A stretch of DNA of 64,000 nucleotides from Halalkaliarchaeum sp. AArc-CO (GTDB lineage Archaea > Halobacteriota > Halobacteria > Halobacteriales > Haloferacaceae): the NCBI RefSeq assembly GCF_024972735.1, contig NZ_CP087723.1, positions 2,108,001 through 2,172,000 of the forward strand, read 5' to 3'. Positions 9,077 to 20,350 of the stretch are shown here, in pieces (position 1 is the first letter of the stretch; each line of letters begins with the position of its first letter). A model generated the notes under the pieces. That model saw only the letters and a list, made by a program, of their open reading frames with translations, made no database searches and was not told the origin of the DNA. The translations under genes were made by a program, and so were the position numbers.

Positions 9077-9439
9077 ATGAGCAATTACCTCGTTGCGATG
9101 GAGGCGGCCTGGCTGGTTCGCGACGTAGAAGACATCGACGACGCGATCGGCGTGGCCGTAAGCGAGGCGGGGCGGCGCCTCAACGATCAGGACAAAGAGT
9201 ACGTCGAAGTCGAAGTCGGGGTGACGACCTGTCCCGCCTGCGGGGAGCCGTTCGACTCGGCGTACATCGCTGCGGAGACGGCGCTCGTTGGACTTCTCCT
9301 GGAGATCGAGATCTTCAACGCCGAGGGGGAGGAACACGCCACCCGGATCGCGAAAAGCGAGGTCGGGGGTGCACTCCGCGACGTCCCGCTTTCGGTCATC
9401 GAGGTCGTCGAGACCGAGTCCGACGAGGACGACGAGTAG
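9077..9439 (+). CDS. UPF0212 / DUF555 family protein
   Basis: A 120-residue protein of the archaeal UPF0212 (DUF555) family, starting MSNYLVAMEAAWLVRDVEDI. A central C-x2-C pair (TTCPACGEPFDSAYI) may bind a metal; I see no second pair. The C-terminus is very acidic (ESDEDDE). Family function is unknown; the conservation across euryarchaea and absence of membrane segments suggest a cytoplasmic housekeeping role. The nearest TATA-like element is about 115 nt upstream, so a 5' leader of roughly 90 nt is possible. It lies 75 nt upstream of cysS on the same strand. Confidence 0.85.
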   Translation: MSNYLVAMEAAWLVRDVEDIDDAIGVAVSEAGRRLNDQDKEYVEVEVGVTTCPACGEPFDSAYIAAETALVGLLLEIEIFNAEGEEHATRIAKSEVGGALRDVPLSVIEVVETESDEDDE

Positions 9440-11624: not shown

Positions 11625-11909
11625 CTAGCTGGTGAACAGGTCGCTGTCCCCGGGAACCGAAAACAGTCCCATCCGCACGCCACAGTCGAGCCAGCCGTAG
11701 CCGTACGAGTACGAGGCAAGCGCGTTGACCGGGTCGTCCTCTTCCCTGAAGTGACGGCCGTCCTCGAGGTAGGATTCGGCCATTTCCCGACAGTCACTCG
11801 CGGCCTCGCCGAGCGGTGTCCCTTCGGGAACGGCCCGATCGGCGACATCGAGTGCGTCCGCGAGCATTCGTTCGTACCGATCGACCTTCTCTTCGAGCTC
11901 CGCGGGCAT
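11625..11909 (-). CDS. DUF357 family protein
   Basis: A 94-residue helical protein of the archaeal DUF357 family, starting [20 protein letters not shown]. The signature is the second half: [38 protein letters not shown] (read in parts), an alpha-helical hairpin related to the TPR/HEPN-like all-helical folds. It is probably cytoplasmic and oligomeric; the biochemical role is unknown. It is convergent with the DUF2062 gene (39 nt apart) and divergent from the thymidine kinase gene, with about 118 nt between starts. Confidence 0.82.
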
Positions 11910-12027
11910 GCGCTGGGATTGGATTTCGATCCCGATAGACGTTCCCCTGTGTCGTGTCGAGAAACGCCGAGGCGGCGACCCACAGCTGTTCGAAACTGTT
12001 TTGCTCGTGGCCGAATCGCCCGTACTT

Positions 12028-13304: not shown

Positions 13305-13415
13305 ACGGAGTTGCAGACCCGAGCTGCGGCTGCAGTCGAATCAACTGCTGTCATGGGTCGGTCCGCGTCCGACTTTCGACAACCGTTTTAGGCCGCGGCT
13401 ATTTCGTTCGTTCAA

Positions 13416-15602
13416 ATGGGTTCGTGTATCATCTGTGGTGTGTCTGTCGACGGCCGAATATGCGACAGCCACCAGGAAGACGTCGTTTTCGAGTTTCGTG
13501 GAGATTCCCCGGACCAGCTGGTTTCGGGTCGATACTACCGTGGCACCGTCGACGGGTACGCCGACTTCGGCGTGTTCGTCGATCTCGCGCCGGGCGTCAC
13601 CGGGCTGTTGCACCGCAGCGAGCTCGACCGCCGGCTGGAGTCGCTCGACTGGGAGCCCGGCGAAACGGTGTTCGTCCAGGTGAAGAACGTCCGTGACAAC
13701 GGCAACATCGATCTCGGCTGGTCGATCCGCCAGGCCGAACGCGAGTTCCGGGGCGCGCTGATTCAGGACGGCGACACCGATCGGGAGCCGGAGACGGAAG
13801 CCGACGACGAAAAAGAGACGCAGGGTGACGACGAGGACGTAGCGAAACCGGACAGCGGCGAGGAGGACGTTGCGACGACCGACGACCGGGCGATCGAACG
13901 GAGCGCCGAAACGGACGCCACGAGTGGTGGCGAGCCGACCGAAGTTCGGGATCCGTCCGGCAACGCGGGTACGACTGCCGTAACGAAGTCGGAGGCGGCA
14001 ACCGAAGCCACCACCGAGCCCGAAGCCGAGTCCGAACCGGAAGCCGAGTCCGAAGCCGAGTCCGAACCGGAAGCCGAGTCCGAACCGGAAGCCGGAACGT
14101 CCATCGATCGGGTGTCCGTCGAAGCGCTGTCGGACGCCGTCGGCGAGACGATCCGCCTCGAAGGAGAGATCGTGAGCGTTCGCCAGACCGGCGGCCCCAC
14201 GGTGTTCGAACTCCGCGACGAAACCGGGGTCGTGGACTGCGCCGCGTTCGTGGAACCCGGAGTCCGCGCGTATCCGGACGTCGGCGTCGACGACGTCGTT
14301 CGGCTCGAGGGTGACGTCGAGCTCCGGCGCAACGAGATCCAGATCGAGACCGAAGCGCTCGTCGTCCTCGAGGGAGACGACCGCGACGAAGTCGTAACGC
14401 GGCTCGAGGACGCCCTGGCCGCGAAGGCCCGTCCGGACGTCTTCGAGCCGATCGGGAACCACGAGACGGTCGAGGCACTGCGCGAGCCGATCCTGGACGC
14501 CGCAGAGGCGCTCCGTCGGGCCGTCCTCGAGAGCCGACCGATCGTCGTCCGACACCCGGCGACGGCGAACGGCTACCTCGCCGGTGCTGCCGTCGAGCGC
14601 GCAGTGTTGCCGCTCGTGGCAAAGGAGTACGCCGGCTCCGACGCCGAGTACCACTACTTCAAACGCCGTCCGCTGGAGTCGTCGGTGTACGACATGGACG
14701 ACGCGACGATGGACGTCACGCGGATGCTCCAGGACCGGGACCGACACGACGAGAAGCTCCCGGTGTTTCTGCTGCTTGGAACGGGAGCGACCGCCGAGTC
14801 CGAGGACGGGCTGGACCTGCTCGACATTTACGACGCCACGCGGGTCGTCGTCGACGCCGAGCCGGCGGATCCGGAGGCCGGCGACCACGCGGCAGTGCTC
14901 GTCGCGCCCGACGAGGACGACGAAGACGACCTGTCGGTGGGTGCGCTCGGAGCCGAACTCGCCGCGGCGATCGACGACGGCGCCCGGGACGGGCTCGCAC
15001 ATCTTCCCGCGACGAGCTACTGGGAGACGGCTCCGGGGACGTACGCCCGGGTCGCCGACGAGGCGGGCTACGACGCCGACAGGCGGCGCGATCTCCGCGA
15101 GGCGGTCGCGCTGGAGGCGTACTATCAGTCCTACGAGGACAAACGGGAGCTGCTCACCGATCTCCTGTTCGGGGACGGTGGCGCGGATCTCGCAGCGCAC
15201 GTCGCCGAACAGTTCCGCGTGAAGGTCGACACCGAGGTGGCGACCGCACGCGAGAACCTCGAGCGGACCGCCCGCGACGGCGTCGAACTCGCACTGCTGG
15301 ACACCGACGCGTACACCCATCGGTACGACTTCCCCCCGACGTCGCTGCTGCTCGATGAACTGCACCGCCGGGAACGAACCGACGGCGCGTTCGCGACGAT
15401 CGGCGTCGGCACCGACGAGCTGTTCGTCCGGTCGACGTTCGACGTCGACCTTCGGGCGGCCGTCGACGACGCCCGGGAGGCCGTTCCCGAGGCGGATCTC
15501 GGCGTCGCCGACCTGCGCGACGGCCGCGTGGAGTTTCTGGCCGGCCGCCGGGAAGACGCCCGGGACGCGATCGTCGACGCCGTCGTCGATCAGGCCCGAT
15601 AA
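13416..15602 (+). CDS. RecJ-like DHH-superfamily protein with Zn ribbon, S1 and OB domains; catalytic motifs lost
   Basis: A 728-residue multidomain protein. Order: zinc ribbon C4-x2-C7-x7-C15-x2-H18; S1 domain (about 35-110, GTVDGYADFGVFVDLAPG); an acidic Glu/Pro/Ser linker (about 115-225) with repeated EAESEP units; an OB fold (about 230-310, IRLEGEIVSVRQTGG); then a DHH-type domain. Active relatives have a D-x-D in motif I; here it reads RHPATANGY (R379-Y387). The DHH motif position reads VVVDAEPADP. Both metal-binding sets are therefore absent, so this is probably a non-catalytic DHH protein, as eukaryotic Cdc45 is. The TATA-like GTTTTAGG near 13388 supports ATG 13416. A structural role in replication or repair is inferred. 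Confidence 0.82.
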   Translation: MGSCIICGVSVDGRICDSHQEDVVFEFRGDSPDQLVSGRYYRGTVDGYADFGVFVDLAPGVTGLLHRSELDRRLESLDWEPGETVFVQVKNVRDNGNIDLGWSIRQAEREFRGALIQDGDTDREPETEADDEKETQGDDEDVAKPDSGEEDVATTDDRAIERSAETDATSGGEPTEVRDPSGNAGTTAVTKSEAATEATTEPEAESEPEAESEAESEPEAESEPEAGTSIDRVSVEALSDAVGETIRLEGEIVSVRQTGGPTVFELRDETGVVDCAAFVEPGVRAYPDVGVDDVVRLEGDVELRRNEIQIETEALVVLEGDDRDEVVTRLEDALAAKARPDVFEPIGNHETVEALREPILDAAEALRRAVLESRPIVVRHPATANGYLAGAAVERAVLPLVAKEYAGSDAEYHYFKRRPLESSVYDMDDATMDVTRMLQDRDRHDEKLPVFLLLGTGATAESEDGLDLLDIYDATRVVVDAEPADPEAGDHAAVLVAPDEDDEDDLSVGALGAELAAAIDDGARDGLAHLPATSYWETAPGTYARVADEAGYDADRRRDLREAVALEAYYQSYEDKRELLTDLLFGDGGADLAAHVAEQFRVKVDTEVATARENLERTARDGVELALLDTDAYTHRYDFPPTSLLLDELHRRERTDGAFATIGVGTDELFVRSTFDVDLRAAVDDAREAVPEADLGVADLRDGRVEFLAGRREDARDAIVDAVVDQAR
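14020..14096 (+). repeat. in-frame acidic repeat (EAESEP units) in the DHH protein linker
   Basis: Short in-frame direct repeats built from GAAGCCGAGTCCGAACCG encode alternating EAESEP and EAES units in the disordered linker between the S1 and OB domains. Such tracts can change in copy number without shifting the frame. Confidence 0.8.
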
Positions 15603-15614
15603 CGACGGATCGAC

Positions 15615-15667
15615 CCCGCAACGGCCGAAGCGACGACCCGCAACGGCCGAAGCGACGACCCGCAACG
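15615..15667 (+). repeat. 22-bp tandem direct repeat upstream of elp3
   Basis: Units starting CCCGCAACGGCCGAAGCGAC begin at 15615 and 15637, with a partial third copy from 15659 that diverges after about 8 nt. The array fills the space between the DHH gene stop and the elp3 TATA box (TTATTCG, 15674-15680). Confidence 0.85.
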
Positions 15668-15703
15668 ACACCCTTATTCGCGTCACGCCGTGACTGTGTG
15701 CCG

Positions 15704-18385: not shown

Positions 18386-18871
18386 TCACTCCTCGAATCG
18401 CTTTTCGAACTCGATCCGGTGTGGACTGTAGCCGTGCCGCCGGTAAAACCGGCGTGCGCCCTCGTTTTCGGCCATGGCGTCGAGCGACACCGCCTCGGCC
18501 CCGGCCTCGCGGAGCGTCCGTTCGGCGGCTTCGAGTAGCCGTGATCCGACGCCCTGATTTCGGGCCTCTGGACGAACGTAGAGGTTGTCGACGATGCCGC
18601 GGGTCACGTCCTGCCGATATCGACCTGTCTCCATCGAAAACATGACGAACCCGAGTGGCTCTTCGTGGTCCTCGGCTGGAGTTGCATCGGCTCCCGGACG
18701 CGCAACCAAAATGGTGCCGGAGACGACTCCCCGACCGATCGCTTCTCGGATCAAATCGCGGTTCGCCTCCGAAAACAGGTGAGAGTCGTACGCCCGCTGC
18801 TCGGCGGCGAGTTCGACCCACCAGTCTGCGAGCAGATCCACCTCGGACAAGGTGGCGGGTTGGACGTGCAC
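18386..18871 (-). CDS. GNAT family N-acetyltransferase
   Basis: A 161-residue GCN5-related acetyltransferase. The acetyl-CoA-binding segment is VRPEARNQGVGSRLLEAAERTL (Q-x-x-G-x-G/S form), preceded by the beta-strand DNLYV and followed by AVSLDAMAENEGARRFYRRHGY, the usual C-terminal signature. The substrate is unknown; haloarchaea have many such enzymes. The gene is divergent from XPB with about 96 nt between starts and lies 86 nt upstream of tRNA-Thr on the same strand. Confidence 0.88.
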   Translation of the reverse strand: MHVQPATLSEVDLLADWWVELAAEQRAYDSHLFSEANRDLIREAIGRGVVSGTILVARPGADATPAEDHEEPLGFVMFSMETGRYRQDVTRGIVDNLYVRPEARNQGVGSRLLEAAERTLREAGAEAVSLDAMAENEGARRFYRRHGYSPHRIEFEKRFEE

Positions 18872-18939
18872 GATGTCGAATTGGGCGAGGCGAGTAATAA
18901 GGATGGGCGGCGGAAAGCGGTCGACGGCGTCGACGAGAC

Positions 18940-18947
18940 TTTATTTA
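18940..18947 (+). promoter_or_regulatory. TATA box fixing the XPB GTG start
   Basis: TTTATTTA is centred about 24 nt before GTG 18968, so the transcript probably begins at or next to that codon and the longer upstream open frame is not translated. Confidence 0.6.
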
Positions 18948-18967
18948 CGGCGGGCGTTGGAGGCGGC

Positions 18968-20350
18968 GTGGCGATCGAACTCCGATTCCGGGACGGAACG
19001 ATCCACCTCGCCGACGGGGTAAGTGATCGCTCATCCGACAGCGAATTACTGTCCGATCTCGAATCCCTCCCCGGCGTCGAACCGGATCCACGATCTGGCG
19101 GGTACCGGGCGCCGGCCTCCAGTTACGCCGCCCTCCGAGACGCCATCGAAGAGCGCGGTCTGTCGTACGAGGATCGAGTGTTCGACGATCGAGACGAACG
19201 CAGGCTCGAGCTCGCGACGGACTACCGCCTCCGGGAGTACCAGGTCGACGCACTCGACGCCTGGGAGGAGGCCGGCCGATGCGGCGTGATCGAACTCCCG
19301 ACCGGCAGCGGGAAGACCGTGATCGCGATCGCCGCGATCGCGTCGGTCCGGCGCCCGACGCTCGTGGTCGTCCCCACGATCGACCTGCTGAATCAGTGGG
19401 AGCGGGAACTCAACCGGGAGTTTTCGGTTCCGATCGGTCGGTTCGGCGGCGGCGAACAGCGACGGGAGGCGATCACCGTCTCGACGTACGACTCCGCGTA
19501 TCTACGGGCCGACGACGTCGGCGACGCCTTCGAGTTCGTCGTCTTCGACGAGGTGCACCACCTCGGGGGCGAGGGGTACCGCGACATCGCCCGACTGCTC
19601 GCTGCGCCGTCCCGTCTGGGGTTGACGGCGACGTTCGAGCGACCGGACGGCGCCCACGAGGCGATCGCCGAACTGGTCGGGGATCGGGTGTATCGGCTCG
19701 ACGTCGACGACCTCGCGGGCGAGCACCTGGCCGCGTACGACATCAAACGGATCGAGGTCGAACTCACTCCCGAGGAGCGGGAGGCGTACGAAGCGGCTCA
19801 GGAAACGTTCGTCGACTATCTTCGGTCGTCGAACCTCCAGTTACGTAGCGGCAGTGACTATCAGAAGCTGGTGTTGCGTTCCGGCAACGACCCCCGGGCA
19901 CGGGAGGCGCTGTTGGCCAAACAACGGGCACGGAACGTGATGATGAATGCAGACGCGAAAGTGGACGCGCTCGCACGGATCCTCGAGCGGCACCGCGAGG
20001 ACCGGATCATCGTCTTCACCGCCCACACCGAACTGGTGTACCGGCTCTCGCGTCGGTTCCTCCTGCCGGCGATCACGAGCGAAACCGGGACGTCGGAACG
20101 CAGGCAGATCCTCGAACGATTCAGGGACGGTCGCTACTCGCGAGTCGTGACCGCAAACGTGCTCGACGAGGGGGTCGACGTTCCGGACGCGAACGTCGCT
20201 GTCGTGCTGTCGGGGTCGGGCAGCGAACGCGAGTTCACCCAGCGACTGGGACGAATCCTCCGGCCGAAGGACGGCGGCGGCCGGGCCCTTTTGTACGAGG
20301 TCGTGAGCGACGAAACGGCCGAGGAACGGGTTGCAAGTCGGCGGCGGTGA
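18968..20350 (+). CDS. xpb: XPB/Rad25-type DNA helicase
   Basis: A 460-residue superfamily 2 helicase of the archaeal XPB type, which unwinds DNA in nucleotide excision repair together with the nuclease Bax1. After an N-terminal damage-recognition-like region (1-80) come motif I LPTGSGKT, motif II FDEVHH, motif III GLTATFERPDG, the thumb region (VDYLRSSNLQLRSG), and motifs V-VI ANVLDEGVDVPDA and QRLGRILRP. GTG 18968 is supported by the TATA box 18940-18947. Bax1 is encoded at 22.2 kb on the same strand; three leftward genes lie between them. Confidence 0.92.
   Translation: MAIELRFRDGTIHLADGVSDRSSDSELLSDLESLPGVEPDPRSGGYRAPASSYAALRDAIEERGLSYEDRVFDDRDERRLELATDYRLREYQVDALDAWEEAGRCGVIELPTGSGKTVIAIAAIASVRRPTLVVVPTIDLLNQWERELNREFSVPIGRFGGGEQRREAITVSTYDSAYLRADDVGDAFEFVVFDEVHHLGGEGYRDIARLLAAPSRLGLTATFERPDGAHEAIAELVGDRVYRLDVDDLAGEHLAAYDIKRIEVELTPEEREAYEAAQETFVDYLRSSNLQLRSGSDYQKLVLRSGNDPRAREALLAKQRARNVMMNADAKVDALARILERHREDRIIVFTAHTELVYRLSRRFLLPAITSETGTSERRQILERFRDGRYSRVVTANVLDEGVDVPDANVAVVLSGSGSEREFTQRLGRILRPKDGGGRALLYEVVSDETAEERVASRRR

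Follow-up and report, generated by a model that had tools for sequence, protein, structure and literature searches.

A HAN-type RecJ paralogue without an active site in Halalkaliarchaeum sp. AArc-CO is very probably RecJ4, the scaffold of a RecJ3/aRNase J complex

The gene examined here, recJ4, lies on the plus strand at positions 13416 to 15602 of the window, the whole 64,000-nucleotide stretch of the Halalkaliarchaeum sp. AArc-CO genome that was analyzed. It starts with ATG and encodes an inactivated 728-residue protein of the HAN-type DHH/DHHA1 group, as identified from the open reading frame (ORF), a HAN profile and the fold of PDB 5yh1. About 27 nt 5′ of the start codon is the sequence TTTTAG (13386 to 13391, plus strand), which we take to be a possible TATA-like element of an archaeal promoter, with the transcript presumably leaderless. 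The encoded protein begins with a zinc ribbon of the pattern CxxC...CxxH, read from the sequence (residues 4 to 19; 13425 to 13472), followed by an S1 nucleic-acid-binding domain (residues 38 to 100; 13527 to 13715; PF00575, 33.5 bits, cut-off 22). An acidic, low-complexity, disordered linker of about 35% Asp and Glu (residues 108 to 230; 13737 to 14105) then leads to an OB fold (residues 247 to 316; 14154 to 14363; PF01336, 43.4 bits, cut-off 27) and to a degenerate DHH/DHHA1 domain delimited by its fold match (approximately residues 350 to 728; 14463 to 15599), with all of these features encoded on the plus strand. Neither the DHH nor the DHHA1 model of Pfam reported the protein, and when the whole genome was searched at E ≤ 10, the DHH model was silent at recJ4. 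An antisense ORF of 781 residues (13341 to 15686, minus strand) was regarded as a shadow ORF opposite GC-rich coding sequence, given that the homology sits in the plus frame. The neighbors of recJ4 in the window encode a Yip1-domain protein and Elp3, the latter next downstream. An XPB-like helicase gene (ERCC3_RAD25_C, XPB_DRD and ResIII; 18869 to 20350) is situated about 1.5 kb downstream of Elp3, and DUF555 and DUF357 proteins are encoded at 9077 to 9439 and 11625 to 11948, near CysS and thymidine kinase.

The predicted structure had a mean pLDDT of 84.2, with the zinc-ribbon region poorly modeled (residues 1 to 17, pLDDT <50) and linker residues 130 to 213 and 215 to 227 likewise below 50 in the AlphaFold model. 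The DNA encoding the linker includes a 30-bp tandem repeat (14014 to 14084; 2.4 copies, 97% matches), which is a likely source of length variation; this repeat encodes part of an acidic E/S/P/A stretch.

Profile and structure comparisons placed the protein with HAN. The HAN equivalog model of NCBIfam (NF053577) matched residues 227 to 725 (E 7e-107) at 358.4 bits, short of the curated cut-off of 840 bits, which RecJ3 of the same genome passed at 1085 bits; the intact DHH nuclease motifs that mark HAN are absent from the window protein. The DHH structure of Pyrococcus HAN, 5yh1, was the top match both by sequence (E 1.5e-40) and by fold (Z 43.9, rmsd 2.9, 409 residues, covering residues 319 to 728 of the prediction), with a bacterial RecJ as the second-best fold entry at Z 26.3. 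The matches to RecJ and Cdc45 folds begin at about residue 346 to 355. After residue 350 the longest insert relative to the genome's own RecJ3 was found to be 1 residue; thus, the fold is that of HAN without a CID insert. The HAN branch corresponds to arCOG00429 of the literature.

The distribution and phylogeny of the homologs support the assignment to RecJ4. Matches of the RecJ4 type (E <1e-145) were detected in 144 of the 145 genomes of the haloarchaeal class, the exception being the genome designated G021, while the best RecJ3 match among those listed in the same search reached only 1e-87; RecJ3 itself was present in all 145. In two genomes of the Haloferax group, G076 (L051) and G078 (L058), the RecJ3 match contains one TAA within its stretch, possibly at the match end. 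On an 82-row tree, the 37 RecJ4 rows formed one side of a branch with 100/100 support and the 45 others formed the second side. Named Haloferax relatives were among the RecJ4 group, with the Haloferax volcanii protein itself outside the retrieved set. The Haloferax gibbonsii ortholog is 55% identical to the window protein over 762 alignment columns and has a histidine at position 104; His104 is the residue named as the first of the H. volcanii RecJ4 linker (PMC10470531). Every listed RecJ4-type place was free of internal stops, and the DHH/DHHA1 part was found to be under purifying selection in 28 pairs of Haloferax and Halogeometricum relatives (median dN/dS 0.16), by which a pseudogene or frameshift is ruled out. 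The linker was the fastest-changing region in these relatives (median identity 0.49, dN/dS 0.60). RecJ4 is an ordinary, conserved member of a haloarchaeal protein family that has been described before and in part characterized.

The catalytic ligands were examined in an alignment of 134 homologs, comprising 64 RecJ4-type proteins, 49 RecJ3 proteins, 20 HAN proteins from outside the haloarchaea and the single HAN of G021. All nine ligand columns were intact in the 70 active homologs (RecJ3, 49/49; non-haloarchaeal HAN, 20/20; and the G021 protein). The RecJ4 proteins, on the other hand, retained one (5 proteins), two (20), three (32) or four (7) of the nine, and the window protein only one, Asp480. 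Because RecJ3, the outgroup HAN and G021 have all of these columns intact, the loss in RecJ4 is not a product of chance or misalignment. In the window protein, motif I reads RHPATANGY (residues 379 to 387; 14550 to 14576) where the active form in the genome's own RecJ3 is RHHADGDGM, motif II reads LLGTGA, its Asp replaced by G455 (14772 to 14789), and motif III, the DHH motif, reads VVVDAEPADP with Asp480 kept (residues 477 to 486; 14844 to 14873), all on the plus strand. The pattern of replacement across RecJ4 is uniform, unlike random decay: the first motif-I Asp is Thr in 60 of the 64 proteins, the second is kept in 54 and the DHH Asp in 62. This uniformity might point to residual or altered catalysis, in which a single-metal or changed site still hydrolyzes a nucleotide or nucleic acid. 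We regard such activity as very unlikely, as the window copy alone has Asn (N385) for the second motif-I Asp and keeps one ligand of nine, the motif-II Asp is Gly in 47 of the 64 RecJ4 proteins, and His at the GGGH position was aligned in none of the 64, with the caveat that the motif-IV and GGGH columns are more alignment-dependent than the other ligand columns. Moreover, the motif-I change D366A leaves HAN of Thermococcus kodakarensis almost completely inactive (PMC5717133). The original prediction, which described an inactivated RecJ relative with a ribbon, S1, OB and DHH-like layout, agrees with these findings. The layout is borne out by the Pfam S1 and OB matches, the HAN profile, the 5yh1 fold and the ribbon sequence; the altered motif I and DHH-position sequences were located as it gave them; and the inactivation is confirmed by the one remaining ligand on a HAN-like DHH/DHHA1 fold. 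The alignment with haloarchaeal RecJ paralogs that it proposed separates RecJ3 (9/9 ligands) from RecJ4 (1 to 4 of 9). Its statement that the metal ligands are missing holds for eight of the nine but not for the DHH Asp, D480.

Four RecJ paralogs have been described in H. volcanii, of which RecJ1 and RecJ3 retain the active-site residues and RecJ2 and RecJ4 are predicted to have lost them (PMC7776575). In the Halalkaliarchaeum genome, RecJ1 was identified as the gene in locus L004 (RecJ_archaeal, 648 bits; DHH_CID domain, PF21763) and RecJ3 as G000:C2:962407-964311, the closest active paralog of the window protein (35% identity over the OB-DHH part). Two loci with DHHA1 matches were set aside in the search for RecJ2: L161 resembles by eye an alanyl-tRNA-editing protein, and L154 resembles another DHH-motif protein with no NCBIfam match. 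The L154 ORF (1354 to 2955, minus strand of the locus) encodes 533 residues with DSDADG, DHH and GGGHPRAAGC motifs; its DHHA1 match is below the cut-off and NCBIfam gave none at 0.001, and its motifs suggest an active DHH phosphoesterase from a different subfamily. Because these DHHA1-match loci looked unlike RecJ2, the RecJ2 candidate was instead located by its ribosomal neighbors, at G000:C2:1425994-1427256 (L249:2395-3657), flanked by ribosomal S15 and S3Ae. A small gene between this candidate and S3Ae, unrecognized by Pfam, was taken as Pcc1 from its position. An S15/Pcc1/S3Ae neighborhood was described for the haloarchaeal inactivated arCOG00428 by Makarova and colleagues (PMC3307487). 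The candidate encodes SDTDGDA near its start, had no Pfam match and no PDB sequence match, scored only 20 bits with RecJ_archaeal and matched RecJ1 weakly (36% over 44 residues); with sequence matches weak or absent, the name RecJ2 rests mainly on place.

These paralogs bear on whether the window gene encodes an archaeal Cdc45-type factor, i.e., a catalytically inactive RecJ linking GINS to MCM within the replicative CMG helicase. The inactivated DHH/DHHA1 fold is in keeping with such a factor, the fold comparison also returned human Cdc45 (7pfo_C, Z 22.4; 5dgo, Z 19.1), and the identity of the RecJ protein that serves as Cdc45 among the four of H. volcanii was described as an open question in 2020 (PMC7776575). 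With Cdc45 chains at about Z 15 to 22 in the VIA-align listing, a common superfamily fold is clear and only the type is in question, and the fold is far nearer that of HAN. A CID is present in GAN and Cdc45 but not in HAN (PMC7776575, PMC5717133); PF21763 was unmatched in the window protein at E ≤ 1 but matched the genome's own RecJ1 at 4.4e-36, and a direct BLASTP comparison of these two proteins gave no significant match. The place between S15 and S3Ae is occupied by the RecJ2 candidate, not by the window gene. In addition, H. volcanii recJ4 is dispensable, with RecJ1, RecJ3 and RecJ4 non-essential even in combination according to unpublished data cited in PMC7776575. MCM is listed with RecJ3, RecJ4 and RNase J among Cas1-associated proteins in a passage that is silent on direct contact (PMC9051519). 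Thus, with the CID absent, the neighborhood different, the fold nearer HAN and the branch separate, the Cdc45/GAN assignment was rejected as highly improbable. The Cdc45-type identity suggested in the original prediction fits RecJ1 and the RecJ2 candidate better than this gene of the HAN branch, with the RecJ2 candidate a better candidate for Cdc45 than the window gene; the structural role suggested alongside it is likely, on the scaffold data for Haloferax RecJ4 (PMC10470531). Rather than being the haloarchaeal Cdc45 that is still missing, the 'dead RecJ' of the window most likely belongs, as a subunit, to a nuclease complex known from H. volcanii, and a search for Cdc45 in this genome is better directed at RecJ1 and the candidate for RecJ2.

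In H. volcanii, RecJ3, RecJ4 and aRNase J were found to co-purify at 2:2:1, and deletion of recJ4 abolished the association of RecJ3 with aRNase J; RecJ4 itself 'appears non-catalytic' and is the apparent scaffold of a 3′-5′ nuclease complex with these two partners, while RecJ3, RecJ4 and Cdc48a matter in recovery from DNA damage (all PMC10470531). The Halalkaliarchaeum genome encodes, in addition to RecJ3, an aRNase J (410.6 bits, cut-off 400), and the Rrp41 exosome model had no match in it; haloarchaea have been reported without an Rrp41 exosome match. With RecJ3 and aRNase J present and Rrp41 silent, the window protein was therefore read as a non-catalytic scaffold of the same complex. On the Haloferax experiments (PMC10470531), RecJ4 would not cut but would pair with active RecJ3 and recruit aRNase J, probably through the long acidic disordered linker, to form RecJ3:RecJ4:aRNase J (2:2:1). 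The complex would act mainly as a 3′-5′ exonuclease on RNA and single-stranded DNA, would restrain aRNase J and may aid recovery from DNA damage, with the S1, OB and zinc ribbon parts putatively binding nucleic acid or partners. A structural, non-catalytic role of RecJ4 is thus likely by analogy. Overall, we consider it very probable that the window gene is recJ4, an inactivated haloarchaeal HAN paralog orthologous to H. volcanii HVO_2889 and the scaffold of a RecJ3/aRNase J complex. We infer the binding and function by transfer from Haloferax; the orthology, layout, ligand loss, selection and gene presence were observed directly.

Several observations qualify this transfer. The linker proposed to bind partners is the most rapidly changing part of RecJ4, and the window layout is not identical to that of the RecJ4 studied since the ribbon is kept here and absent in Haloferax. 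The only Lys in the SAMP2-site stretch of H. gibbonsii aligns with Glu357 of the window protein, in a column where 2 of 50 rows carry Lys; the SAMP2-modified lysine of Haloferax RecJ4 is probably absent from the window protein, although the equivalence with K358 is a guess. Furthermore, RecJ3 occurs in G021 together with an aRNase J match slightly under the cut-off (396.2 bits, cut-off 400), with no RecJ4 detected among the matches listed, which suggests that the RecJ3/aRNase J set may not depend strictly on RecJ4. Of 19 genomes examined, 16 had aRNase J above the cut-off and seven, all non-haloarchaeal, had Rrp41. The notion that RecJ4 substitutes for the RNA exosome was unsupported as a simple rule, as six of the 19 (G021 and five other, non-haloarchaeal genomes) had neither an Rrp41 nor a RecJ4-type match.

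The gene neighborhood was also compared. Elp3 was found downstream of recJ4 and in the same orientation, as far as the available flank reached, in 56 of 99 recJ4 loci, including the 10 Haloferax loci (none of which is among those listed without it), and the locus numbers adjoin in H. volcanii (elp3, HVO_2888; recJ4, HVO_2889). The pairing is not general, because in 43 loci, 38 of them with at least 3 kb of downstream sequence, Elp3 was not in the available flank. A regulatory RNA- or ligand-binding protein that acts outside RecJ3/aRNase J, e.g., in tRNA or translation functions with Elp3, would accord with the S1, OB and ribbon domains and with Elp3 next downstream, yet it is the least probable of the alternatives given these 43 loci and the recovery of RecJ3 and aRNase J in the Haloferax purifications (PMC10470531).

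Beyond the scaffold assignment, the ribbon and the active site were found to be distributed in a complementary manner. A CxxC...CxxC/H ribbon precedes S1 in 61 of the 64 RecJ4 proteins, in none of the 49 RecJ3 proteins, in 9 of the 20 outgroup HAN proteins and in the G021 HAN. The RecJ4 proteins without a ribbon (three in the alignment and those of six further genomes, five of Haloferax group g7 and one of g14) begin with MDWIT, past the ribbon; Haloferax RecJ4 is thus atypical in lacking it. G021 (1.9 Mb, 120 contigs, 98% complete) had no RecJ4-type match among those listed (best E 6e-81), and its single HAN (L095; G021:C2:31800-35500) combines the zinc ribbon and 9/9 ligands in one chain. 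As the ribbon stayed with RecJ4 and catalysis with RecJ3, these paralogs resemble two parts of a single ancestral HAN that complement each other. We tentatively suggest, as a possibility somewhat short of an even chance, that after a duplication within the haloarchaeal lineage RecJ3 kept catalysis and RecJ4 the ribbon to form a mutually dependent heteromer, with the G021 HAN as the undivided state. In a smaller tree, G021 grouped with RecJ3 at a support of 81/78, and the alternative of a RecJ3 plus RecJ4 clade was not rejected (AU p 0.257). The RecJ4 stem is long (1.03 in the 82-row tree, 1.9 in the smaller tree), which leaves room for long-branch effects. G021 may represent either an undivided ancestor or a loss of RecJ4, and the duplication that gave RecJ3 and RecJ4 may predate or postdate the G021 split. 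No such partition was found in the portions of the literature on RecJ paralogs and pseudonucleases covered here, and this reciprocal loss of the ribbon and the catalytic site provides a small, testable evolutionary point.

In comparison with known systems, the window protein is most like H. volcanii RecJ4 (HVO_2889), with which it shares the HAN-type order of S1, acidic linker, OB and degenerate DHH-DHHA1, the lack of an active site, the adjoining Elp3 and the presence of the partner genes. It differs from the Haloferax type in its zinc ribbon, in N385 at the second motif-I Asp and in the likely absence of the SAMP2 lysine. HAN of T. kodakarensis and of Pyrococcus (PF0399, PDB 5yh1) is similar in fold, domain order and the lack of a CID, but the window protein is without the catalytic ligands and scores 358 against the 840-bit cut-off; the genome's own RecJ3, in turn, differs from it in having 9/9 ligands, no zinc ribbon and a HAN score of 1085 bits. 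Cdc45 and RecJ2 have likewise been described as inactivated. The likeness of the window protein to GAN, Cdc45 and the haloarchaeal RecJ1 and RecJ2 is that of the DHH/DHHA1 superfamily fold, from which group RecJ4 is set apart by the missing CID, its other neighborhood and its other branch.
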